21,022 nt of DNA from a virus. A program made the translations under genes and the position numbers. A model generated the notes under the pieces. That model made no database searches. It worked only from the letters and a program-made list of their open reading frames with translations, and was not told the origin of the DNA. The DNA lies in the IMG/VR virus record IMGVR_UViG_3300025647_000342, positions 1-21,022 of that record; one strand, written 5' to 3'. Within the stretch, counting starts at the first letter, position 1; the number at the start of each line of letters is the position of its first letter. This document shows, piece by piece, positions 4,821-21,022 of the stretch.

Positions 4821-5804
4821 ATGGGCTTTCACGAAACGCAATTCCCGACCGACATCAGCTATGGCAGCCGCGGCGGGCCTGGCTTCAGCACGAACATCGG
4901 CACGCTGGACAGCGGCCACGAAATCCGCACGGCCAGGTGGTCCCAGGCGCGGCACCGCTACGACGCGGCCTATGGCATCCGCACGCTCACCCAGATGAAC
5001 ACCGTGCTGGAGTTCTACCACGCCCGGCAGGGACCGGCACACGGCTTTCGCTGGAAGGACTTTCTGGACTTCACCACGAACGCCGACCACCGCAGCGAAC
5101 CGGCGTGGAACGACCAGGATCTAGGCATCCTGTCCAGCGGCGATCAGATCCAGCTTCGCAAGGCATACACCAGCGGCGGCACCACGCAATACCGCGACCT
5201 GTTGAAGCCGGTGTCTGGCACGGTGGTGGTCGGCTGGGACGATGGCGGCGGTCTGTCCGAGAAGACAGAAACCGCGGACTGGTCGGTGGACACGACCACC
5301 GGCATTATCACCATCGCATCCGGCAGCCTGGCGGGCGCCACCGGGAAGACGATTTATGCCGGGTGCGAATTCGATGTGCCGGTGCGCTTTGGGGAAGAAC
5401 TGGACGAAAACCTGCCCGTGGCCATCGCGGCCTACGACAGCGGCATGATCAGCAGCCTGCCCATCGTGGAAATCAAAGGTGCGACCGCGCACGCCACAGA
5501 TTACAACTACGGCGGCGCCACGCGCTACACCGCGGCAGGCGCTCACAGCCACAGCATCGCGGACGGGCGCCTGATCGTGGGCGCACCTTCGGGCACGGAC
5601 AACCAGGAAATCACCATCCCCACGGTGACGAACAACCACCAACTGGGCGGCCCCTACTTCTACGCCCTCCACGCAGGCGGCAGCGGAACGGTCACCATCA
5701 AGTCGAACGGCGCGACGGTGAAGGCTCTGGCTACGAACGAATGCTGCGCCATCCACATGACCATCGACAGCGGCGGAAGCCGCGAATGGACGGTGTGGGG
5801 CTGA
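4821..5804 (+). CDS. DUF2460 distal tail protein with extra C-terminal domain
   Basis: A 327-residue protein starting directly after the tape measure stop. Residues 1 to about 215 match DUF2460 (TIGR02217, GTA gp12-like): F-P-x-x-I-S-Y-G-S near the start, a GHE-x-R-x-x-R-W motif, the F-Y-x-A-R-Q-G-x-x-x-G-F-R-W-K-D segment and the closing P-V-R-F-x-E-x-L-D. GTA gp12 forms the distal-tail ring that links tube to hub. The usual family length is about 200-215 residues, so roughly 105 extra C-terminal residues are unusual. They form a Gly/Thr-rich beta domain that resembles the next gene product. The stop overlaps the next ATG (TGATG). Confidence 0.88.
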   Translation: MGFHETQFPTDISYGSRGGPGFSTNIGTLDSGHEIRTARWSQARHRYDAAYGIRTLTQMNTVLEFYHARQGPAHGFRWKDFLDFTTNADHRSEPAWNDQDLGILSSGDQIQLRKAYTSGGTTQYRDLLKPVSGTVVVGWDDGGGLSEKTETADWSVDTTTGIITIASGSLAGATGKTIYAGCEFDVPVRFGEELDENLPVAIAAYDSGMISSLPIVEIKGATAHATDYNYGGATRYTAAGAHSHSIADGRLIVGAPSGTDNQEITIPTVTNNHQLGGPYFYALHAGGSGTVTIKSNGATVKALATNECCAIHMTIDSGGSREWTVWG

Positions 5805-6211
5805 TGGACCGCGCCACCTTCTACGGGGGAAGCACGGCGCACATCACGCTGTCAGGCGCCTACACCGCCAGCAGTCCCTACATCATGTCCGACCTGGGCG
5901 CGTGGAACCGCTACCGCATCTGGCAGTTCGCGCCGACCGCGGCCAGCACCTTCATCCTGCTGCCTGACGCACGCCTGTGCGACCTGGGCGGCCCCATCTT
6001 CTGGATGCGGAACACGCACGCCAGCAACCAGGTCCATGTCGGGGCCTGGGGACCGGACCCCTACCCGGTCAAGTTCGTGTCCATCCGCGGCACCGGGACG
6101 CCTGGCCAGAACCGCATGGCCTTCTTCCTGCGGGACAACAGCACCGGCGCAGGGAAGTGGTTGGCGGTCAGCGCGGAAGCCGGTGCGCTGACTCTGCGGG
6201 GGACAAGCTGA
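5804..6211 (+). CDS. Small tail protein, paralogue of DUF2460 C-terminal module
   Basis: A 135-residue protein whose ATG overlaps the preceding TGA by one base; its own stop overlaps the next ATG in the same way. No named family is recognised. It is beta-rich with a hydrophobic core (T-F-I-L-L-P-D, L-G-G-P-I-F-W-M-R-N, F-F-L-R-D-N, G-K-W-L-A-V). The order L-G-G-P-aromatic, then a strand ending in a Gly loop, then N/R-x-x-aromatic, then S/T-G-x-x-x-W also occurs at the end of the DUF2460 protein, so the two are probably duplicates. Such modules occur in phage fibre and decoration proteins, so a tail-tip attachment or decoration role is plausible but unproven. Confidence 0.7.
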   Translation: MDRATFYGGSTAHITLSGAYTASSPYIMSDLGAWNRYRIWQFAPTAASTFILLPDARLCDLGGPIFWMRNTHASNQVHVGAWGPDPYPVKFVSIRGTGTPGQNRMAFFLRDNSTGAGKWLAVSAEAGALTLRGTS

Positions 6212-7161
6212 TGGCCCACGATGTCGGCAACGGGCGCCAGAACCTGCTGGACGGCGAACTGTGCCGCCTGGCCCACCTGTTCCGCGTGACCCGCCTGGAC
6301 GGCACGGTGCTGCGGGTCACCGACCACGACGGCACGCTGACCTTCACCGAAGGATGGATCGACGGCGACACGGACCCTTTCACCAGCGAAAACACCTACA
6401 GCCCGGTGGACGGCTGGGACGCATCGAACGAACGCGCCGAAGCGGCCATGAAGCGGTCGAACATCGAATTCCGCGGCGCCATCGGCGGCAGCATCGTGAC
6501 CACCGCAGACCTTCAGGCTGGGCTGTGGCACGACGCTGCCGTGGACGAAGTGATCGTGGACTGGATGTATCCATGGCTGGGGCCGATCCGGTGGAAGCAC
6601 TACCGCCTGACGGATTTCAGGTTCGACGGTGATGTGTGGATGGCCCAATGCGAAAACCGGATGGGCGAACTTCACCGGAAGGTCGGCAAGGTCTTTTCGA
6701 AGACCTGCTGGCACGGCTTCGGTGATGCCCGCTGCGGCATCAACGCCAGCGCTTCGAACACCACCATGTTCAGCAGCACCGTCACCGCGGTGACCACGAA
6801 CGCAGATTTCAGGTTCGAAGGCACCGGCGGGCACACGCCCGAAGACCAGGCAGACGATTTCTTCAAGGTCGGGCACCTGACCTGGACCAGCGGCAACAAC
6901 AAGGGCCGCAGCTACCCGGTCTACCAGAGTTACCAGAAGACCGGCAGCGATCCGGGCACCAGCGATGATGCGCGGCTGGTTCTCCAGTATCCGACCGCAG
7001 CCACCATCCAGGTGGGCGACGGCTTCACGGTCTACGCTGGCTGCGACCGAACCCTGGCGGAATGTTCCACCAAGTGGTCGAATCTGGTCAACTTCGGCGG
7101 GTTCCCACAGATCCCCGGCACCAGCGCGGTGGCGAAGACGGGTGAAGAAGTCGCAGGCTGA
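6211..7161 (+). CDS. DUF2163 / BR0599-family tail hub protein (GTA gp13-like)
   Basis: A 316-residue protein starting at the ATG that overlaps the previous TGA. An N-terminal segment (L-C-R-L-x-H-L-F-R-V-T-R-x-D-G, then T-D-H-D-x-x-L) and a C-terminal Y-A-G-C-D-x-T-x-x-x-C...N-F-x-G-F-P-x-I-P-G are diagnostic of TIGR02218/DUF2163. Cys166, Cys175 (G-D-A-R-C-G), Cys278 and Cys285 are positioned like the conserved cysteines of the family; the analogous lambda gpL binds an iron-sulphur cluster, so metal binding here is a reasonable inference. Residues about 215-265 form a Gly/Asp-rich insertion. The GTA equivalent is part of the hub below the distal tail ring. The 3' end overlaps the NlpC/P60 gene by 20 nt. 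Confidence 0.9.
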   Translation: MAHDVGNGRQNLLDGELCRLAHLFRVTRLDGTVLRVTDHDGTLTFTEGWIDGDTDPFTSENTYSPVDGWDASNERAEAAMKRSNIEFRGAIGGSIVTTADLQAGLWHDAAVDEVIVDWMYPWLGPIRWKHYRLTDFRFDGDVWMAQCENRMGELHRKVGKVFSKTCWHGFGDARCGINASASNTTMFSSTVTAVTTNADFRFEGTGGHTPEDQADDFFKVGHLTWTSGNNKGRSYPVYQSYQKTGSDPGTSDDARLVLQYPTAATIQVGDGFTVYAGCDRTLAECSTKWSNLVNFGGFPQIPGTSAVAKTGEEVAG

Positions 7162-12626: not shown

Positions 12627-13328
12627 TCAGGCACCCTTCACGCGGGCAGCAGCAAGTCTGATCATGGCGGTGTCGCCCGCTTCGGCGCGGGCGCTGGCCA
12701 GCCATTCGGTGTAGCCGAAGGTGAAGCTGCGGCGGTCGCCGCTGCTGTTCAGGCGGGCGCGGATGAAGGCAGCCGCGGCGGCGCGGTCACGCATCTTCGC
12801 CACGCGCAGCGCCACGCCCATGCCAGCGGCGGCGTGGGACTGGCTGACGATGGTGTGGCGGCGGAAGTCGCCCGTGCGGCGTGCCAGCAGCGTGGCCTGG
12901 TTGTGCTGGGCGCAGAACGGGATCATCTGGACCCGGATGGCCGGGGCGCCGCATTGGGCGCAGGTGTGGCCTTCGGCGGTGTGGGCCGGGGCGACCACGG
13001 GCACGGCGTCCGCCAAGTCCGCGATGGTGGCGGCCAGCGCCACATCCTCTGCGATGGCGGCCATGTCGGCGGCTTCGGCTTCCATTTCGCGGAAGCGGCA
13101 AGGGACGCCAGCGGAAGCGCTGTAGGTGGCGCGGGCAGCCAGGAAGCCAGCAGCGAAAGCGGGGCGGCAGCCAGCCAGCTTCGCCATCAGGCGGTCTTCC
13201 CGCACGCTGGTGTCCATCGTGGCGATGGCGCGGGCGCGGCTGTGGCGCAGCGACAGGTTGATGCGCAGGCCAGCCTTGAATCCGGCGCGGCGGTGGTGAT
13301 CCTGAAGGGCGTTGGAGGCGTTGGTCAT
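12627..13328 (-). CDS. Hypothetical protein with zinc-ribbon-like motif, first gene of left early operon
   Basis: A 233-residue Ala/Arg-rich protein. ATG 13328 is chosen because it follows the conserved leader CCCACGAAGAACC and sits about 45 nt after the promoter -10 box; the frame is open further but only to a TTG next to the -10. The centre carries C-A-Q-C-G-A-P-A...F-C-A-Q-H-N (about residues 122-142), a C-x2-C-x(n)-C-x2-H element that may bind zinc. The flanks are helical and basic (A-F-I-R-A-R-L, R-R-S-F-T-F-G-Y-T-E-W). No family is recognised. A nucleic-acid role is possible but unproven. Confidence 0.72.
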   Translation of the reverse strand: MTNASNALQDHHRRAGFKAGLRINLSLRHSRARAIATMDTSVREDRLMAKLAGCRPAFAAGFLAARATYSASAGVPCRFREMEAEAADMAAIAEDVALAATIADLADAVPVVAPAHTAEGHTCAQCGAPAIRVQMIPFCAQHNQATLLARRTGDFRRHTIVSQSHAAAGMGVALRVAKMRDRAAAAAFIRARLNSSGDRRSFTFGYTEWLASARAEAGDTAMIRLAAARVKGA

Positions 13329-13432
13329 GGTTCTTCGTGGGGTTTGGTGCGGGGCGGTTTGTCCCGCTGACAATTGAGTTATCGGCTACGCCGCGGGAAT
13401 GGTCAACCCCCATTCCTGACTTTCTTCTGACC
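13320..13432. repeat. Direct repeat copy A (promoter/leader of gene 12627-13328)
   Basis: About 113 bp that matches 15420-15532. The part from the ATG leader through the -10 box (13320 to about 13391) differs by only a couple of bases; the -35 region and the TGAC element are also conserved, with more change between them. It covers the first two codons, leader, -10, -35 and upstream operator of the left early operon. Confidence 0.85.
13378..13406 (-). promoter_or_regulatory. Sigma70-type promoter A
   Basis: On the - strand: -35 TTGACC (13406-13401), 17-bp spacer, -10 GATAAC (13383-13378). Transcription would start near 13370, giving a leader of about 43 nt before ATG 13328. A short inverted repeat (TTGTC-5 nt-GACAA) lies just after the -10 and could be an operator. 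It drives the left early operon. Confidence 0.75.
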
Positions 13433-13435
13433 TTT
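13417..13435 (+). promoter_or_regulatory. Tandem TGAC operator-like element, copy A
   Basis: TGACTTTCTTCTGACCTTT read on the + strand, upstream of promoter A. The same tandem element occurs at 15516-15534 (+) and, on the - strand, inside the two right-hand promoters at 19806-19824 and 20862-20880. Two TGAC half-sites are 11 nt apart, about one helical turn, suggesting a site for a dimeric regulator. Confidence 0.5.
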
Positions 13436-13862: not shown

Positions 13863-14291
13863 CTAGGCCCGCAGTTCCAGGAAGTGCCGCCAGTCGCAGC
13901 CGGGCACGCGGGCCTGCTGCTTGGCCCAGTCCAGGCCCAGGTAGATCCAGGCGCGGTGCTGTTCGCTGGCACCGCCTTCCGGCTGGCACCGCACGGTTTC
14001 CGTCGCCCGCTGGTAGAAGGCGTGGTCAACACCTTCCAGGCGGTCCATCGACGCCAGCGTGGTGCTGTCGGCAGACCACAGTTCACCCTTCACGGCTTCG
14101 CCATCGTCATGGACACGGAACACCGCGGGGTAGGCCCCGTTGGTGGTCATGTGGAAGCCGCTGCGCACGGTTTCAGCTTCGCCCATGAAGGTGGCGCTGC
14201 GCAAAAAGTCGTTATTGACCAGGCCGCGCATCAGGGTGCCGTAGACAAAGACCAGATGGCGGCTGGTATCCGGTTTCTCGGTGTTGGTCAT
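13863..14291 (-). CDS. Gamma-glutamylcyclotransferase-like protein (AIG2/GGCT fold)
   Basis: A 142-residue protein, normal for the family. The N-terminal V-F-V-Y-G-T-L-M-R-G (residues 14-23) is the family signature; G-A-Y-P-A-V (52-57), A-V-K-G-E-L-W (66-72) and M-D-R-L-E-G (82-87) follow in the usual order, with Glu86 the candidate catalytic residue and an F-Y-x-R strand after it. GGCT enzymes release 5-oxoproline from gamma-glutamyl amines or peptides. The ATG follows a GAACC leader and a MTN start as in other early genes here. It is the second gene of the promoter B unit. The substrate is unknown; the same phage region also encodes a glutamine amidotransferase, suggesting linked gamma-glutamyl or amide chemistry. 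Confidence 0.88.
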   Translation of the reverse strand: MTNTEKPDTSRHLVFVYGTLMRGLVNNDFLRSATFMGEAETVRSGFHMTTNGAYPAVFRVHDDGEAVKGELWSADSTTLASMDRLEGVDHAFYQRATETVRCQPEGGASEQHRAWIYLGLDWAKQQARVPGCDWRHFLELRA

Positions 14292-14351
14292 GGTTCTGTT
14301 CCGTGGGTTCAGTTTCAGGTTCAGGTGGTGTGGTGGCGGTCAGGACTTCGA

Positions 14352-15428
14352 TCAGCGCTGGATGCCCGGCGCATGGAGGTAGGCCAGGACGCCGCAGCGG
14401 TGGTCCGTCTGCCCGCCAGGCAGCAGGATGTTCCAGCGCTGGAACGCCGTCACGCCGCGGGTGCCCTGGTCATGCGGGTAGGCAGCCACGATGTAGCCCT
14501 GGCGGCGGCGGCGGCGCAGGATCTGGCCCACCACCGTGCGGGCCTTCGTCCGCAGGCCCGTGGCAGAGTAGCCGAAGGTGCCGCTGGTCATGTCCTGCCC
14601 AGGCTGGAAGGTGTAGGTGGCCCCTTCCGGCTCCGGCTCCGGCTCCGGCTGCGCATCCACGAAGCCGCAACCGCAGCGGTCGCAGAAGTCGCCCTGGCTG
14701 CCGAAGGCGCGACCGTCGCCGTTGGCGTAGTTGTCCGCTTCGGTCACAGCGCCACAGACGCCGCAGGTGGTGAACAAGGTGCGGCTGCCTTCGTCGTAGC
14801 TGCGGGCGCAGGCAGGGTAGATTCCTCCGGTAGCTGCGCGGGCCAGGCGGATGCGCTTCACGATATCGTCCAGCAGCATGGCGGCGCTTTCCCTGTGCGT
14901 GGCCACGCAGGCAAGTCCGGTGGCTTCGGTTCCGCGCAGGACGCGCAGGCTGACCCGCGCCACACCAAGCATGGAGAAGTGCGCCTGGTCGAAGGTCAGC
15001 CAGTAGGACAATTCCGTGTCGGCGGCCATGGCGTTCAGCGTGTCCAAGGCGACCAGGATGGCCCGCGTTTCTTCCTGGGTGAACAGACCTTCATGGTCCA
15101 GGGCGGCGGCGCTCCGGGCGGCGTAGTCCTTCGCGGCGCGGCCCTGGTCCGCCCGCCAGGCTTCCAAGGCCTGGGCCACGATGCGGTCTTCGGCGTCGTT
15201 CGTCGCCTGGGACTGGTGTTCGAAGGTGGCCAGCGGGCGCTTGGTGTTGACCTTGAAGACGCGGAAGCACATTTCCGAACGGCGGCGCCGGATGCGGGTT
15301 GCCTTCTTGACTTCGAACTGCGGGCCGCAGGCCGTGCTGACTTCCAAGTGACCGACTCCCTTTCGGGTCCAGGTCATGGCCGGGGCGGCGAACTGGGGCT
15401 GGGCGGTGTTGGCGTTGGTGTTGGTCAT
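14352..15428 (-). CDS. Hypothetical protein, 358 residues, with zinc-ribbon-like motif
   Basis: ATG 15428 is chosen because it follows the conserved leader CCCACGAAGAACC and lies about 50 nt after promoter B; the frame is open to a TTG inside the promoter. No family is recognised. The N-terminal 60 residues are basic (R-I-R-R-R-R-S-E-M-C-F-R-V-F-K-V). The middle has helices and a cysteine set: C-G-V-C-G (about residue 232) and C-D-R-C-G-C-G (about 256), a likely zinc ribbon. A (Pro-Glu)5 run follows at about 268, then a domain with R-T-V-V-G-Q-I-L-R-R-R-R-R. Zinc ribbon plus basic patches suggest nucleic-acid contact, but no enzyme motif is visible. It is the first gene of the unit that includes the cyclotransferase. 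Confidence 0.7.
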   Translation of the reverse strand: MTNTNANTAQPQFAAPAMTWTRKGVGHLEVSTACGPQFEVKKATRIRRRRSEMCFRVFKVNTKRPLATFEHQSQATNDAEDRIVAQALEAWRADQGRAAKDYAARSAAALDHEGLFTQEETRAILVALDTLNAMAADTELSYWLTFDQAHFSMLGVARVSLRVLRGTEATGLACVATHRESAAMLLDDIVKRIRLARAATGGIYPACARSYDEGSRTLFTTCGVCGAVTEADNYANGDGRAFGSQGDFCDRCGCGFVDAQPEPEPEPEGATYTFQPGQDMTSGTFGYSATGLRTKARTVVGQILRRRRRQGYIVAAYPHDQGTRGVTAFQRWNILLPGGQTDHRCGVLAYLHAPGIQR

Positions 15429-15532
15429 GGTTCTTCGTGGGGTTCGGTGCGGGGCGGTCTGTCCCGCTGACAATTGAGTTATCGGCTACGCCCGCCGTAT
15501 GGTCAACCCCTATTCTGACTTTTTTCTGACCT
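15420..15532. repeat. Direct repeat copy B (promoter/leader of gene 14352-15428)
   Basis: Partner of 13320-13432. The conserved part covers ATG, leader, -10, -35 and the TGAC tandem element. Similarity stops beyond about 15534, where copy A continues into a different sequence. Confidence 0.85.
15478..15506 (-). promoter_or_regulatory. Sigma70-type promoter B
   Basis: On the - strand: -35 TTGACC (15506-15501), 17-bp spacer, -10 GATAAC (15483-15478). Leader length and sequence match promoter A. It drives the 358-residue protein and the cyclotransferase-like gene. Confidence 0.75.
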
Positions 15533-15534
15533 TT
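15516..15534 (+). promoter_or_regulatory. Tandem TGAC operator-like element, copy B
   Basis: TGACTTTTTTCTGACCTTT on the + strand, 10 bp upstream of the promoter B -35 box. It differs from copy A by one base in 19. Confidence 0.5.
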
Positions 15535-15540
15535 CGCGGG

Positions 15541-15706
15541 TCAGGGCCAGGCGCGAACTTGAAATGGGGCCGCCGGGTGAAAGCTCTGAATAAGGGGCGC
15601 CGCAACATCAGCGCGGCGGGCCGGATACAGCGGCGGCCCTCTAGAAGCCCTCCAAGGGGCCGCCACGGCGCCAGGGCAGCGAAACCGGCCTGGCAGGCGG
15701 CGCTGG
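15541..15706. other. Non-coding interval with an inverted repeat
   Basis: Between promoter B and the terminator at 15707-15748 no convincing gene exists on either strand. It contains an 8-bp inverted repeat (15632-15639 with 15657-15664) around a TCTAGA, a GAACTTGAAA motif (15555-15564) and other GC-rich dyads. It could be an operator region, an untranslated RNA or decayed sequence; nothing distinguishes these. Confidence 0.4.
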
Positions 15707-15748
15707 ACAGAAAAGCCGCCAGACGCGCCCGCAGGCCCGCCTGGCGGC
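15707..15748 (-). terminator. Rho-independent terminator of the recombination operon
   Basis: On the - strand, GCCGCCAG (15748-15741) pairs with CTGGCGGC (15722-15715) across an 18-nt GC-rich loop and is followed by TTTTCTG. It lies 16 nt after the last stop of the operon that starts at promoter 19797-19825. Confidence 0.75.
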
Positions 15749-15763
15749 GTCATGGCGGTGGCG

Positions 15764-16051
15764 TCAGGCCCCGGCGCCGGGGCCTTCCAGTTCCCTGGCG
15801 AAGTCCAGCACCCACCAGCAGGCCGGGCAAGGGGCCGCTGCGGGCACAGGCTCCGGCACAGGGCAGCCAGCTTGGTCGCAGGCGTCACCGCAGCAGCCAG
15901 CGGCGTGGCCAAGTCCGGTGCCGGTCACGGTGACGGCGCCGGTGCCGTCGCAGTTCGGGCACCGGCCAGCCACCAGGCGCACCAGTTCGGCGGCACCTTG
16001 CGACAGGTCAGCCACCTTCTGCCGCAGCAGGGTTTCCAAGTGGTCGGCCAT
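15764..16051 (-). CDS. Cysteine-rich zinc-finger-like protein, 95 residues
   Basis: ATG 16051 overlaps the preceding stop by one base (TGATG). A helical N-terminus (L-E-T-L-L-R-Q-K-V-A-D-L) leads to C-P-N-C-D-G-T-G (about residues 31-38), the repeat type found in DnaJ-like zinc fingers. Further cysteines follow (A-G-C-C-G-D-A-C-D-Q-A-G-C, then C-P-A-C-W-W). Eight or more Cys could hold two zinc ions. It may act in protein or nucleic-acid binding. It is the last gene before the terminator. Confidence 0.72.
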   Translation of the reverse strand: MADHLETLLRQKVADLSQGAAELVRLVAGRCPNCDGTGAVTVTGTGLGHAAGCCGDACDQAGCPVPEPVPAAAPCPACWWVLDFARELEGPGAGA

Positions 16052-16590
16052 CACTTCGCCGCTTCCTGGCCGGTCCCTTCTTCGCCGCTGGCGTCTTCCT
16101 GGCTGCCAGCACCGTCGCCCTTCGTGGCGTCCACGGTCATGGTGTTGATCTGCTTCACGGTGAAGCCGGGGAAGCCGGGGCCACGGTCCACGCCGTTCTT
16201 GAAGGCGGTGCGCAGGCTGCGCAGGTCCATGTCGTGGTATTCGACTTCCAGGGTGATGATTGCGGTTCGGGTTTCCATTGTGGTGTTGTTCTCTGGTTCG
16301 GGGTTGATGCTTACAGGCGTGGCGGATTCCATCCAGAACTGCGCCCCCAGCGCCACGCTGGCGGGCACGGCGCGTTCCACGAAGGCCAGGGAAATTGCCA
16401 GGCTGCCGTCCTGGTTCTGGTGGATGCGGTGGCTGTCTGTTTCTTCGATCAGCCGCGCAAGGCGGCGGCGACCGCCCAACAGCACGGTGGTGGCCGTGTC
16501 CAGCAGGGCGACCGGGCGCAGCCTGACATAGCCGCGGTGCGTAGTCTGCCATTCGATGGCGCAGACTTCGATCAGATAGCTGTAGGTCAT
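16051..16590 (-). CDS. Hypothetical protein, 179 residues
   Basis: ATG 16590 overlaps the RuvC-like gene stop by 4 nt (ATGA). The first half (to about 95) has beta strands and an R-G-G/R-R-R-L-A-R-L-I-E-E helix; the second half carries T-A-I-I-T-L-E-V-E-Y-H-D-M-D-L and a Gly/Glu-rich acidic tail. No family is recognised. An internal ATG at 16278, preceded by a sequence like the conserved leader (GAACCAGAGAACAACACCAC), could give a second product of about 75 residues, so this may be two overlapping proteins. Confidence 0.65.
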   Translation of the reverse strand: MTYSYLIEVCAIEWQTTHRGYVRLRPVALLDTATTVLLGGRRRLARLIEETDSHRIHQNQDGSLAISLAFVERAVPASVALGAQFWMESATPVSINPEPENNTTMETRTAIITLEVEYHDMDLRSLRTAFKNGVDRGPGFPGFTVKQINTMTVDATKGDGAGSQEDASGEEGTGQEAAK

Positions 16591-17102
16591 GCGGTGTTCC
16601 CCAGCGTCAGGCGCCGACCGTGTTCTGCGATCAGCGCGGCGTCTGCCATTCCCCAGTTGCGCTTCACCAGCAGCAGTTCGCGCATTTCGGGGAATAGCTC
16701 CAGGGCGAACTTCACGGCGGCTTCCTTCGTGTCTTCGACATCACCGCGGAACTGCGTGCGCTGCCAGTCCTTCGGGCGGAAGCGCAACATGCGGAACCCC
16801 ACGCCGTCAATGGCACCCAACAGGCGCCCGTAGGACGCGCCGAAATTGAAAGCCGCTACGGCGCCCTGCGGCGGGGCGTTCTTCCCCTTCCGCATGGCGC
16901 CCACTTCTTCCACCGCAACCTGCGGCAGTTCAGCAGAAGGCCACCGGCGCAGCCACTCGGCCACGCGGTAGCCGTCCACTTCGCGCTTCTTCGTGCCGCT
17001 GACCGGCATTCGTGTGGCGCCCAGGAAGGCGCCCCGGTCGCTGATGGCGACCAGGGCACCCGACAGCCCAGGGTCCGCACCAAAGCAGACGCGCAGGGAC
17101 AT
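16587..17102 (-). CDS. RuvC-like Holliday junction resolvase
   Basis: A 171-residue RNase H-fold nuclease of the RuvC type. Asp10 in F-G-A-D-P-G-L-S-G-A (residues 7-16), Glu65 at the end of a strand (V-A-V-E-E-V), and Asp154 in G-M-A-D-A-A-L-I-A-E-H-G supply the metal-binding acidic residues. The R-P-K-D-W-Q...D-T-K-E-A-A segment is typical of phage RuvC relatives. It would cut branched DNA during recombination or before packaging. ATG 17102 lies 2 nt after the preceding stop. It sits in the recombination operon with the annealing-like protein and Gp157. Length is normal. Confidence 0.87.
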   Translation of the reverse strand: MSLRVCFGADPGLSGALVAISDRGAFLGATRMPVSGTKKREVDGYRVAEWLRRWPSAELPQVAVEEVGAMRKGKNAPPQGAVAAFNFGASYGRLLGAIDGVGFRMLRFRPKDWQRTQFRGDVEDTKEAAVKFALELFPEMRELLLVKRNWGMADAALIAEHGRRLTLGNTA

Positions 17103-17104
17103 GC

Positions 17105-17323
17105 CTACTGTTCCCCTTCCGCTTCTGGCGCGAAGCGCGGCGGCACCTGGCCGTTCACGAAGGCTTCCACTTCATGCTTCAGCTTCATCAGGTCGCGTTC
17201 GTTTCCGAAGGCCACCACGCGCACCACCAGCTTCTTCGGTGCGCCAGCGGCAGACGATTCATAGAAGGCCGCATCTTCGATCAAGTAATACTTGACGGCT
17301 GCGTGTGTCAGGGACGGTTTCAC
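17105..17323 (-). CDS. Hypothetical protein, 72 residues
   Basis: It starts at GTG 17323, overlapping the Gp157 gene stop by 4 nt (GTGA), so translation is coupled. An amphipathic helix and short strands (K-K-L-V-V-R-V-V-A-F-G-N) precede a helix (D-L-M-K-L-K-H-E-V-E-A-F-V-N-G) and an acidic tail. No family is recognised. Strand-then-helix order and small size suggest an accessory protein of the recombination block. Confidence 0.65.
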   Translation of the reverse strand: MKPSLTHAAVKYYLIEDAAFYESSAAGAPKKLVVRVVAFGNERDLMKLKHEVEAFVNGQVPPRFAPEAEGEQ

Positions 17324-17811
17324 TTGAACTTCACCCGCTGGGTCTGGACCAGCTTCACGCCGCGGACTTCGCGGCCCGACTTCAGCGCATCCTTCAACGC
17401 AGCCTTGTCCGGGGTCACGGTCACCTTCGTGGTCAGGAATTCATCGGGCAGTTCTTCCGGCTCCACTTCCACCACCACGCTGGGCGGGTTCTTCACCAGC
17501 TTGGCGACATACTCCGGGCAACTGATTTCCTGGATGCCCAGGGCCACCATGTTGTCGCGCAGGTAGGTCAGGAACCAGTCGATGGACTTCTGCGCCTGCT
17601 TGCGGCGCTTGGCGATCCGTTCTTCCGCTTCCTTCATGGCCGCGATTTCGGCCTGGTGGTTCTGGACCAGCGCAGCGATGGCGCGGCCCTTTTCTTCTGC
17701 GACGGGCAGCAGGCTTTCCACCGTGTCGGCGGCAGCGGCTTCGTCGATTTCACCATCAGCCAGCATGGCCTGGACCTGCTGGACAGCGGCGGACACTTCG
17801 TAGAGTTTCAT
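17320..17811 (-). CDS. Siphovirus Gp157-family protein
   Basis: A 163-residue protein that fits PF05565: an N-terminal M-K-L-Y-E-V-S helix, a long central coiled coil (E-R-I-A-K-R-R-K-Q-A-Q-K-S-I-D-W-F-L), and a C-terminal A-L-K-D-A-L-K-S-G-R-E-V-R-G-V-K-L-V-Q-T segment diagnostic of the family. In Streptococcus phage Sfi21, Gp157 was linked to phage resistance phenotypes; its molecular role is unclear, but it is often next to ssDNA-annealing and RuvC-like genes, as here. ATG 17811 overlaps the previous stop by 4 nt. Confidence 0.88.
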   Translation of the reverse strand: MKLYEVSAAVQQVQAMLADGEIDEAAAADTVESLLPVAEEKGRAIAALVQNHQAEIAAMKEAEERIAKRRKQAQKSIDWFLTYLRDNMVALGIQEISCPEYVAKLVKNPPSVVVEVEPEELPDEFLTTKVTVTPDKAALKDALKSGREVRGVKLVQTQRVKFK

Positions 17812-18026
17812 TCTTCTTCCGTGGGTTGTTCGGTTTCAGGTTCAGGGTTCCAGCGGTCAGGCTGGACGCGCTGGCGCGGCAGCGGCGGCGGCGGCGCGGG
17901 CGCAAAGGCAGTCACCAGGGCCGCGATGGCGGCGCTGAAGGCGGCTAGGACACCGGCCCACATGATCAGCGCCAGGAACAGCCACCAGCCAGCGGCGGCG
18001 ACTTCGCGGAACAGGTCGGACATCAT
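17808..18026 (-). CDS. Single-span membrane protein, 72 residues
   Basis: ATG 18026 overlaps the HTH gene stop (ATGA); a second ATG follows at once, and either may be used. A strong membrane segment lies at about residues 13-42 (W-W-L-F-L-A-L-I-M-W-A-G-V-L-A-A-F), followed by a Pro-rich linker (A-P-A-P-P-P-P-L-P) and an acidic C-terminus (E-E-E). No family is recognised. Its location inside a DNA-metabolism operon is unusual for a lysis gene, so membrane anchoring or host takeover is as likely as holin activity. Confidence 0.7.
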   Translation of the reverse strand: MMSDLFREVAAAGWWLFLALIMWAGVLAAFSAAIAALVTAFAPAPPPPLPRQRVQPDRWNPEPETEQPTEEE

Positions 18027-18247
18027 GCGATCACTTCTGTGCTGCGCCACTTTCTGCTGCGGCGAATGTAGCCCTTGTCTTCCAGGGCGGAAAGGTGGTT
18101 GGCAATGTTCGTTCTGGTGACATCGAACTGCTGTGCCAGTTCCGCCTGTGTCGGCGCGATGCCGTGTTCGTCGATGAAGGCGGCAAGCGCTTCAAGCACG
18201 CGCTTCTGGTGTAGCGTCAGGGGTTCCCTTCTTCTTCTTCGCGGCAT
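18023..18247 (-). CDS. LexA-type winged-helix DNA-binding protein, 74 residues
   Basis: The whole protein matches only the LexA N-terminal domain: L-T-L-H-Q-K-R-V-L-E-A-L (10-21), G-I-A-P-T-Q-A-E-L-A-Q-Q-F (about 29-41), N-I-A-N-H-L-S-A-L-E-D-K-G-Y-I (about 47-61). The peptidase half is absent. It would bind DNA as a small regulator but could not self-cleave, so SOS-type derepression by its own cleavage is excluded. A basic N-terminus (R-R-R-R-R) may add affinity. It lies 2 nt after the preceding gene. It is a candidate regulator for the repeated operators of the early promoters (inference). Confidence 0.8.
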   Translation of the reverse strand: MPRRRRREPLTLHQKRVLEALAAFIDEHGIAPTQAELAQQFDVTRTNIANHLSALEDKGYIRRSRKWRSTEVIA

Positions 18248-18249
18248 GG

Positions 18250-18624
18250 CTACTTCGTGGCGTCAGGCAGAGCAGGGCGCCACACCCGCACCATGCGGCT
18301 GTGGCAGCTAGAGTGCTGCGCTTTCAGGATCTGGCCGGTGAAGGTGATGTCACCGGCCCGTGCGGCCCGGTTGAACGCGGCCCCGATTGCGGCGGGGCGC
18401 ACGGTCACACCAGGGTAGTTCCGTTCCAGGTATTCGCGCAGATGGTCACTAGTGAATTCCTGGTAGGCCGAACAGCAGTAGAGCATGGCGTCAGCCAGGG
18501 CCTGGGCTTCGTCAGCCCGCGAACTTGAAAGCACGGACTGGATGCCAGCTTCCTTGCGCTGGTCGCCGTCCATCTGTTCGCGGTCGCTGAACAGGTCGGG
18601 TTGTTGATCAGAAGGGCGCATCAT
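18250..18624 (-). CDS. Small protein with clamp-binding-like motif
   Basis: A 124-residue protein. The ATG pair at 18624/18621 lies within the last codons of the upstream gene; earlier in-frame starts would overlap it deeply. The N-terminus carries Q-Q-P-D-L-F (about residues 7-12), close to the beta-clamp motif Q-x-x-L-F, followed by an acidic linker. Residues about 60-124 form a winged-helix-like domain (V-R-P-A-A-I-G-A-A-F-N-R-A-A-R-A-G-D-I, then a C-H-S-R-M-V-R-V-W end) of a type seen in small phage DNA-binding proteins. It could link phage DNA transactions to the host sliding clamp. This is an inference from a short motif. Confidence 0.65.
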   Translation of the reverse strand: MMRPSDQQPDLFSDREQMDGDQRKEAGIQSVLSSSRADEAQALADAMLYCCSAYQEFTSDHLREYLERNYPGVTVRPAAIGAAFNRAARAGDITFTGQILKAQHSSCHSRMVRVWRPALPDATK

Positions 18625-19747
18625 CAGGGAAGTAGTCACGGGGTTGCGGTTCGTGACCCGGCGCATAGTCCGGGTTCGGTTGATGGGCGGGCGGCGCTGT
18701 GGACGCAGCAGCGGCACCTTCGACGGCTGCCTGAACAGCAGGGTCAGCAGAGGCGGGGCCGGTGTCGCCACCGGCGCGGTTGATCTGGTATGCCAGCATG
18801 TTGCCGGTTTCGTCCGGCACTTCGATGCGGCAGGCACCCTGTTCTTCCAGCGTGTTCACCAACTCGCGGACTTCCTTCACGATGCGCAGCGCGAAGCCCG
18901 CTTTGGACTTGTTCTGCCGTTCGTCCACATGGAACACAATCTGGTTGAAGGACTGGTAGGACTGGCTAGGAAGCCACCAGCCGCGGTCACCGTGATACTT
19001 CCCCGCGTGGTCAATCAGCAGGCGTTCCCACATCGACCGTTCGCAGCGGGCGATCTCGCACAGCTTGGCCATAAGCTGCGCCCAATCGTTCGGCAGCTTC
19101 GCGGCGCTGGCGAACCAGCCCTGGGCGTTCAGACACCGCTGCGGAACTTCGGTGTAGTCCACATGGCTGTCGCGCTGCTGCTGCTGCTGCGGCTGCTGGG
19201 CAGGCGGGCGCTGGGCAGGCTGCGGCTGCGGCTGCGGCTGATTGCCTTGCGGCTGCTGCCAGCCACCGCCGTTGCCGTTGCCGTTGCCGTTGCCCTGGCG
19301 GTGCCAGTCGCTGTTGAATTCTTCGGCGCCGTAGACGCCGCCGGTGGGCGATGCGAACGCCAGGATGCCGCGGACATGAAGGCGCTTCCATGCCATTTCC
19401 GGCGCATGGGTGGCTTCGGGGTTGTTCTTCCTGGGCGCCTGGTGGCGTTCGCGGTTTCCGCGATCATCCACCACTTCGTAGACCTTCGTGCCGTAGTCCC
19501 ACCGGCAGCTTCCGACTTCCTGGAGTGTTTCCCCCTGGCTGTTGGTGAAGGTTCCACGGTATGCGATGGACACCGGCGTGATGTCCACCGCGTCCACCTT
19601 CATGGTGATGCCGTCCTGTTGGGCGATTTTGTGCGCACCCTGCTTGGTGACGCACCATTTTCCGTGGCTGTTGTAGAAGTCTTCGAACTTCCCTTCCTTC
19701 AGGGAATACTTCTGAGCCAGCCTGTCGATTTCGGCGCGGTTCGTCAT
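18608..19747 (-). CDS. Putative ssDNA-binding/annealing protein with SSB-type C-terminal tip
   Basis: A 379-residue protein, first gene of the recombination operon, ATG 19747 after the leader CCCACGAACGAACC. The N-terminal 150 residues have the strand-helix layout of phage annealing proteins (W-C-V-T-K-Q-G-A-H-K-I-A, a G-S-C-R-W segment, then N-P-E-A-T-H-A-P-E-M-A-W-K-R-L-H-V-R-G-I-L), but I cannot assign it to Rad52/Sak, Erf or RecT with certainty. A low-complexity Gly/Asn, Gln/Pro linker covers about 152-192. A second domain follows to about 330, then a Pro-rich tail ending in D-Y-F-P-D-D-A-P-F. That tip matches the SSB interaction tip (D-D-x-P-F). Neighbours (RuvC-like, Gp157) support a recombination role. 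Confidence 0.7.
   Translation of the reverse strand: MTNRAEIDRLAQKYSLKEGKFEDFYNSHGKWCVTKQGAHKIAQQDGITMKVDAVDITPVSIAYRGTFTNSQGETLQEVGSCRWDYGTKVYEVVDDRGNRERHQAPRKNNPEATHAPEMAWKRLHVRGILAFASPTGGVYGAEEFNSDWHRQGNGNGNGNGGGWQQPQGNQPQPQPQPAQRPPAQQPQQQQQRDSHVDYTEVPQRCLNAQGWFASAAKLPNDWAQLMAKLCEIARCERSMWERLLIDHAGKYHGDRGWWLPSQSYQSFNQIVFHVDERQNKSKAGFALRIVKEVRELVNTLEEQGACRIEVPDETGNMLAYQINRAGGDTGPASADPAVQAAVEGAAAASTAPPAHQPNPDYAPGHEPQPRDYFPDDAPF
19175..19294. repeat. Low-complexity triplet and hexamer repeats inside the annealing-like gene
   Basis: CTG-rich tracts (19175-19198 and 19217-19240) and four perfect GTTGCC units (19271-19294) encode Gln/Pro and Gly/Asn runs of the linker. Copy number could vary by slippage, changing linker length in frame. 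Confidence 0.7.
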
Positions 19748-19796
19748 GGTTCGTTCGTGGGTTGTGGTGTGCCGCTTCCCGCGGCGTGGAGCGAGA

Positions 19797-19825
19797 AGGT
19801 TAGCTGAAGGTCAGGGGAAAGTCAA
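19797..19825 (-). promoter_or_regulatory. Sigma70-type promoter of the recombination operon with tandem TGAC element
   Basis: On the - strand: -35 TTGACT (19825-19820), 17-bp spacer, -10 TAACCT (19802-19797). The tandem TGAC element (19824-19806) covers the -35 and most of the spacer. The TGA stop of the upstream gene is part of the -35. It is nearly identical to the promoter at 20853-20881. Confidence 0.8.
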
Positions 19826-20082
19826 TCCCTGTTCATGCCCGCCTTCCGCCCGGCACAGTCGCGGCTGTCGAAGAAGTCCAGGATTTGCCGGATGTTCTGA
19901 AGGCAGACATAAGGCTGCGGGTGATTCGTCGCGGCATCGCGGATGCGCTGGATGTCGCTGCGGTGTTGCGCGGCCAGGATGTCCACCTGCGTGGCGGCAT
20001 CCACGATGCGTTCTTCGGCCATTTCAAGTTTGTGATTCAGGTGTCGAATGCGCTTCCAGAGGTCGGCGGCTTCCATGGTCAT
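19822..20082 (-). CDS. Small coiled-coil protein, 86 residues
   Basis: ATG 20082 overlaps the amidotransferase stop (ATGA); a second ATG six bases on (20076) has the better spacing to the upstream GGAGG, so either may be used. The protein is largely one amphipathic helix (E-A-A-D-L-W-K-R-I-R-H-L-N-H-K-L-E-M-A-E-E-R-I-V-D-A) with a basic, Asp/Arg-rich C-terminus. No family is recognised. Coupling to the amidotransferase gene hints at a shared role. Its stop codon forms part of the next promoter -35 box. Confidence 0.65.
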   Translation of the reverse strand: MTMEAADLWKRIRHLNHKLEMAEERIVDAATQVDILAAQHRSDIQRIRDAATNHPQPYVCLQNIRQILDFFDSRDCAGRKAGMNRD

Positions 20083-20821
20083 TTCCTCCGGCCAAGGCCA
20101 TCAGGCCCCAGCCCGCTGTAGTGGTAACCGAATGACAGACGCTGCTGCTTCGGCTGGTTCTGCGGGGCGACTTTAGCCGCACGCCGCTGGTGGTAGTCCT
20201 GGCGCCAGGCGTCAGGGTCATAGGTCTTCGGAGTGCCGCGGCGGTCCAGGTCGATTTCCATTTCGTCCAGGATGTCCGACACGGCGGGCACGCTGTCACG
20301 CTTCCTGCGCACGCGCCAGGTGGTGGGGTTCCACGGGTCTTCGCCGTTCTTCCGTTTCGTGGACGGCGCGAACAGGTGCGCCTGCGAATACCAGCAGCCG
20401 TCGCGCCACGCGCCAGCTTCTTCGTTCACCAGGAACAGTTCACCGGCGCCGGTCAGGAAAGCCAGGCGCGAATCATCGGCCAGGCGTTCCACCTTTTCCC
20501 AGGTGGCATCATCTTCCAGAAAGCCATGCGGAAGGTATGACAGGCGCGTGGCCAGCACCCGGCTGTCGGACATCCGCGGCGGCACCGCGATGGTGCGCAG
20601 CACGCCGTTGTGCGCCATGACCATGTTGTGCCCGGCGATGCGGAAGGGATGGCAGTTCGCCTTCACCTTCGCCCCGTTCGTGGCGTAGCGCATGTGGAGA
20701 ACGAAAGGGAACCCGGCTTCTTCCAGCGCCAACGCCTTGCGGCGGATTGGCGCCCAGTCCATGTTGGTCCACGCTTCCAGTCGGTGTGGCCCTTGGTGGT
20801 TCGGGCGATGATCAGGCACAT
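20079..20821 (-). CDS. Class II glutamine amidotransferase, apparently frameshifted near its start
   Basis: ATG 20821 follows the conserved leader and gives M-C-L-I-I-A-R-T-T-K-G-H-T-D-W, with Cys2 where class II amidotransferases keep their N-terminal nucleophile. That frame stops after about 52 codons. The rest of the enzyme is in the -1 frame, open from a GTG at 20819: H-M-R-Y-A-T-N-G, N-C-H-P-F, M-A-H-N-G-V-L and S-D-S-R-V, the standard Arg, His and oxyanion elements. Adding one base near the 16th codon (AAG-CG to AAG-GCG) joins the two halves into about 247 residues. Such enzymes hydrolyse glutamine to supply ammonia to a partner ligase. Without Cys2 the GTG product would be inactive. 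Options: sequencing error, real mutation, or recoding (no slippery site seen). Confidence 0.82.
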
Positions 20822-20852
20822 GGTTCTTCGTGGGATTGAAGGGAAAGAAAGC

Positions 20853-20881
20853 AGGTTACCAGAAGGTCAGCAGAAGGTCAA
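20853..20881 (-). promoter_or_regulatory. Sigma70-type promoter of the amidotransferase gene with tandem TGAC element
   Basis: On the - strand: -35 TTGACC (20881-20876), 17-bp spacer, -10 TAACCT (20858-20853). The tandem TGAC element (20880-20862) overlaps the -35 and spacer. The upstream gene stop TGA forms part of the -35, as at 19797-19825. Confidence 0.8.
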
Positions 20882-21022
20882 GCGCTGACGGCGGCCTGGT
20901 TCTGCGTGGTCGGACGCACGCCGAAGTGGGCGAAGCGCTGGGTGAAGAAGCGCAGCAGGTCCGCGGGCACCGTGGCGGGCGTGGCGGCGTTCGCGGTCAG
21001 GCGGTAGTTCCGCCAGCCGCTG
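20878..21022 (-). CDS. C-terminal 47 residues of an upstream gene (partial)
   Basis: The - strand frame is open from the right edge to TGA at 20880-20878. The visible end reads W-R-N-Y-R-L-T-A-N, then V-P-A-D-L-L-R-F-F-T-Q-R-F-A-H-F-G-V-R-P, which is a well-behaved protein sequence with this window's codon bias. The family cannot be named from this piece. Because class II amidotransferase genes of phages are often neighbours of amidoligase or ATP-grasp ligase genes, this is the place to look for the partner enzyme. Confidence 0.6.
   Translation of the reverse strand, partial: SGWRNYRLTANAATPATVPADLLRFFTQRFAHFGVRPTTQNQAAVSA

Follow-up and report, generated by a model that had tools for sequence, protein, structure and literature searches.

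Phage amidoligase cassettes and the window analysed

Sets of genes encoding an amidoligase, a glutamine amidotransferase (GATase) and a gamma-glutamyl cyclotransferase (GGCT) are found in podoviruses and marine phages (PMC5498523, PMC10580990; gene list in PMC3890496). Such phage cassettes have been annotated for years, and a role in modifying the cell wall against superinfection has been proposed for them (PMC5498523, PMC10580990). For instance, the 'peptidoglycan modification' cassette of LUZ24/PaP3-like and RIO-1/phiEco32-type phages, located in the early region, includes amidoligase, GATase and GGCT (PMC3890496, PMC5498523), along with a COOH-NH2 ligase and an ATP-grasp enzyme; these are arranged in one compact run, in which the GATase is long. 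In Mycobacterium phage Marvin (gp105-gp106) and the Methylophilales phages MEP401 and MEP402, an amidoligase immediately precedes a small class II GATase, a pair described as auxiliary genes in PMC10580990.

The stretch of DNA analysed here (the window) comes from a virus collection; the record is 21 kb long (21,022 nt) and probably a fragment. The plus strand carries tail genes up to approximately 11 kb, and from there to the right end the minus strand carries a replication and accessory region. The window resembles Marvin, MEP401 and MEP402 in this gene order, and its small class II GATase belongs to the same subfamily as theirs, as does the GATase of MW202733, which an amidoligase directly adjoins. 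By contrast, the stretches of Marvin, MEP401 and MEP402 examined carry no annotated GGCT, whereas the window has one; their amidoligases are more distant, with Pfam scores below the cut-off, and their GATases are intact, while that of the window is broken. The likeness to the LUZ24 and RIO-1 types lies in the three families and their early position, although the GGCT of the window belongs to a separate operon. Neither a COOH-NH2 ligase nor an ATP-grasp enzyme was hit in the window or in the 11.5 kb L089 part of the relative described below, both of which are fragments. This type of phage gene set is already known, and the window adds a member in which the ligase is identified and the GATase disrupted.

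A megablast comparison of the whole window with phages returned no match. The GATase alignment retrieved a nearly identical phage contig, IMGVR_UViG_3300025647_000577 (hereafter L009), a 15 kb record that terminates within its own GATase and lacks a GGCT; an intact trio of amidoligase, GATase and GGCT was not seen in any one genome of the window's phage type. Elsewhere in its minus-strand region, the window has a recombination and replication block. This encodes a Holliday junction resolvase (16587-17102, phrog_1770), a Gp157/Mu Gam-like protein (17320-17811, matching PF05565 at E = 3e-40) and, at 18023-18247, a small DNA-binding protein of replication-initiator or repressor type. On the same strand, 18608-19747 encodes a 379 aa early protein with a middle rich in glutamine and proline, which matched no PHROG, had no phage relative by tblastn and hit DUF5643 only below threshold.

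An amidoligase tail and a broken amidotransferase

The features at the right end of the window are as follows.

20878-21022, minus strand: 3' end (47 codons) of an amidoligase gene, ending ...RFFTQRFAHFGVRPTTQNQAAVSA and a stop codon, cut by the window end; assigned from near-identity to L009
20079-20821, minus strand: gene for a class II glutamine amidotransferase, disrupted by the loss of 76 bases; from reading frames, GATase_4 and comparison with L009
20079-20762, minus strand: longest remaining part that has an ATG of its own, 227 aa, beginning MDWAPIRRKAL...; from the sequence and comparison with L009

A preliminary description of this DNA suspected a ligase in a partial gene ending just before the GATase. 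The partial gene does end there, reading in frame SGWRNYRLTANAATPATVPADLLRFFTQRFAHFGVRPTTQNQAAVSA up to a TGA stop at 20878-20880, and is identical at 135 of 137 bases to L009 6735-6871. This segment of L009 falls within a gene (5791-6942) for a 383 aa amidoligase that matches PF12224 (Amidoligase_2) with 103 bits (E = 2.5e-29); the tail in the window is 21 codons shorter than its counterpart, in frame. The amidoligase identity of the 47 aa fragment rests on L009, as the fragment alone matched no family. A search of the window record for Amidoligase_2 was empty, as expected for a tail lying outside the domain, and the controls were silent too.

The L009 amidoligase keeps every invariant column of an alignment with 32 relatives, all 32 of which match PF12224. 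The motifs concerned are ExE, CGxHxH, N and ExR, the invariant residues being E11, E13, H97, H99, N182, E194 and R196 in L009 numbering, outside the portion present in the window. The structural model of this protein, reliable over the first ~240 residues and unreliable over the C-terminal 135, matches glutamine synthetase (Z ~12) and YbdK (Z 11.3), as well as PafA/Dop; the predicted fold is thus like those of glutamine synthetase, YbdK-type carboxylate-amine ligases and PafA/Dop, at 10-14% identity. No relative was found in the bacterial genomes scanned with the L009 amidoligase. Judged by sequence, the suspected ligase is present directly 5' of the GATase and is cut by the contig end.

The same description read 20079-20821 as a class II amidotransferase. 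The family assignment stands, since the product matches GATase_4 (E = 5e-6, 26.0 bits, cut-off 23) and aligns with phage class II GATases, with the R-ATHG, NCHPF and HNG motifs kept, but the single open frame does not. The ATG at 20821 reads MCLIIARTTKGHTDWK, which holds Cys2, and then goes out of frame; the remainder (...FVLHMRYATNGAKVKANCHPF...) stays open solely in the 20079-20819 frame, and the 743 bases from ATG to stop are not divisible by three. In L009 the start is intact (MCLIIARTTKGHTDWKLADYAATRNRHGYGVAWPRPDGRVGLWTNMDWAPIRRK...), the frame MCLII...NCHPFRI is unbroken and the Cys2 nucleophile is in frame with the GATase domain. Compared with this contig, the window is 76 bases short after codon 16, which shifts the frame and removes 25 residues; neither these residues nor the N-terminal cysteine are found in the 227 aa remnant. 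The window as written is therefore predicted to encode no GATase bearing its nucleophile.

The flanks of the deletion are otherwise nearly identical to L009, indicating either a recent break or an assembly error. A pattern scan with the DNA just past the deletion site retrieved the L009 contig only, so the deletion is judged against one relative. Another metagenomic phage contig (L077, 1923-2832) has a GATase also split over two frames, with an amidoligase and a GGCT adjoining.

The probable cyclotransferase operon and a repeated leader

The remaining member of the set lies further left, and several of the genes are preceded by copies of one leader sequence.

13863-14291, minus strand: gamma-glutamyl(amine) cyclotransferase of the GGACT/AIG2 family, 142 aa; from PF06094, the AlphaFold model and the E86 alignment
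14352-15428, minus strand: 358 aa protein 5' of the GGCT, no family assigned; start assigned from the leader motif CCCACGAAGAACCATG
15417-15535, minus strand: repeated leader (TTGACC-17-GATAAC-like, CCCACGAAGAACCATG) before the 358 aa and GGCT genes; from identity to 13317-13415
13317-13435, minus strand: second leader copy, before a 233 aa ORF (12627-13328); from leader alignment and motif
20819-20890, minus strand: shorter leader form (TTGACC...GGTAAC...CCCACGAAGAACCATG) before the GATase; from the exact motif and alignment

That 13863-14291 encodes a GGCT-like protein, as originally noted, is borne out by matches to PF06094 (GGACT; E = 6.4e-22, 78.8 bits, curated cut-off 22.8) and to the gamma-glutamyl cyclotransferase family phrog_2520 (E = 7e-23). 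The AlphaFold model (pLDDT 95) has mouse and human GGACT as its top PDB matches. The YGTL motif is present, and V16, Y17, G18, L20 and E86 are invariant across 38 sequences; E86 is aligned to E82 of human GGACT, its catalytic residue, which is changed to Q in 3jud, such that fold and position of the catalytic glutamate are shared at approximately 25% identity. The protein retains its catalytic glutamate, and its predicted activity is the release of 5-oxoproline from gamma-glutamyl amines.

The GGCT and the 358 aa gene, encoded on the same strand, probably share an operon behind the repeated leader. The leader is about 100 bases long; its copy at 15417-15535 is 91% identical to 13317-13415 over 99 nt and ~78% identical to the leader of the L009 amidoligase, while the exact 16-base motif found before the GATase was expected zero times in shuffled sequences. 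A generic promoter scan missed the repeated leader, which may represent a phage-specific early promoter and translation start region. As it is common to the GGCT operon and the L009 ligase operon, both would fall in the same expression class. The distance from GGCT to ligase in the window, 6.6 kb with the two in separate operons, is wider than in nearly all relatives scanned. A further copy of the leader lies at ~19725-19830, with TTGAC, TAAC and CCCACGAAGAACCATG with one extra base.

Association of the three families and the putative module

Viral contigs scanned with the single GATase protein or the single GGCT protein of the window yielded no relatives, although the GATase and GGCT alignments did find some. 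The best 80 loci each were gathered by the GATase alignment, the GGCT alignment and, as a control, Gp157, another early gene of the window, some of the seeds being members of known cassettes. One set of home-made profiles was run over every locus, covering 7 kb each side, and the loci were then reduced to non-redundant sets. An amidoligase was present in 26 of 28 viral GATase loci (Fisher p = 1e-17 against the control) and in 37 of 63 GGCT loci (p = 5e-12), a fraction that may be inflated by GGCT seeds taken partly from known cassettes, and in none of the 44 control loci. GATase was likewise found in 23 of the 63 GGCT loci, and in an earlier tally the amidoligase lay no more than 150 bases from the GATase in 42 of 45 clusters. 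Furthermore, several unrelated phage contigs encode fusion proteins in which a class II GATase forms the N-terminal part and a GGCT domain the C-terminal part.

L064, 6851-7873: GATase-GGCT fusion
L159, 5791-6864: GATase-GGCT fusion
L171, 3308-4219: GATase-GGCT fusion
L154, 1392-2324: GATase-GGCT fusion
L120, 4483-5538: GATase-GGCT fusion
L169, 5138-5992: GATase-GGCT fusion

Most of these contigs have an amidoligase nearby, while Pfam found no ligase in the flanking genes tested of the fusion in L064/L066. The co-occurrence of the three families in phages, on which the preliminary description had partly relied, is thereby far above the control, and the counts tie GGCT to the amidoligase set in many unrelated phages.

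We consider it likely, with a probability of roughly 0.7, that the amidoligase and the small class II GATase form a module acting together with the GGCT, encoded in a second operon under the same leader, and that its bearer is a tailed phage carrying it in the early region. From the chemistry of the families, the ligase, with its glutamine-synthetase/GCS2-like fold, would use ATP to activate a carboxylate as an acyl-phosphate, to which ammonia or an amine would then be coupled. The ammonia would be freed from glutamine by an intact GATase via its N-terminal cysteine, and the GGCT would take gamma-glutamyl groups off amines in the form of 5-oxoproline and so trim gamma-glutamyl linkages or undo them. 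Most likely, the set would serve to modify a host peptide or a peptide of the cell wall. With the GATase frameshifted, either the glutamine-dependent ammonia supply is lost or the deletion represents a minority variant or an assembly error; were the supply lost, the ligase may work with free ammonia or another amine. The genes are the remnant of a small enzyme set, present in many phages, that probably makes and removes amide or gamma-glutamyl bonds on a host molecule. The amide or peptide modification system originally envisaged is partly supported. Both checks named with it, for a ligase in the upstream gene and for joint occurrence of the families in phages, came out in its favour; it gains from the ligase tail, the co-occurrence and the fusions, and loses from the broken GATase and a GGCT 6.6 kb away in another operon.

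The frameshift itself, which costs the GATase 25 residues and its in-frame Cys2, could mean that the module is decaying: the 76-base deletion would then be genuine and fixed, the GATase would be a pseudogene, and the set as a whole would have no present function. This is possible though doubtful. The deletion junction has no microhomology, which speaks against a simple repeat-collapse artefact, and the in-frame 21-codon difference in the ligase tail is a further point in favour. However, the GATase remainder is open to its end and identical to L009 at 135 of 136 bases in the overlap, indicating a recent break, and 83 of 88 GATase ORFs in relatives retain the Met-Cys start; the similar split frame in L077 is of a kind that metagenome assemblies can show.

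It is less probable, and on balance unlikely, that the module consists of amidoligase and GATase only, with the GGCT an independent accessory clearing host gamma-glutamyl amines or breakdown products of glutathione. The separate operon and 6.6 kb spacing would fit this, as would the 26 of 63 GGCT loci with no amidoligase within 7 kb, and only three of the 28 GATase loci, most of which pair with an amidoligase, have a GGCT nearby (both sets from the best 80). The amidoligase in 37 of 63 GGCT loci against none of 44 controls, the fused proteins and the leader common to both operons argue instead for joint action. Class II amidotransferases and amidoligases also act in small-molecule pathways, and the genes sit amid replication and recombination genes, both of which are consistent with the set making a small metabolite or modifying nucleotides or DNA rather than cell wall or protein; with no base-modification genes matched by Pfam or PHROG among the early-region ORFs scanned, we hold this to be improbable. 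More speculative still, and very unlikely, is the generalisation that amidoligase, small GATase and GGCT, separate or fused, constitute a widespread minimal system for writing and erasing amide or gamma-glutamyl bonds, without an ATP-grasp or COOH-NH2 ligase, of which the window phage would have a version dependent on ammonia or an amine after loss of the glutaminase. The GATase-GGCT fusions are compact proteins on which the chemistry could be tested.

Other arrangements were also observed among the loci gathered. A 208 kb phage contig (L041, 6776-14330) combines, in a single run, an amidoligase and a COOH-NH2 ligase with an ATP-grasp protein and three GATase-like ORFs, and four contigs (L013, L014, L018 and L019) have a tandem pair of amidoligase-like genes 5' of the GATase.
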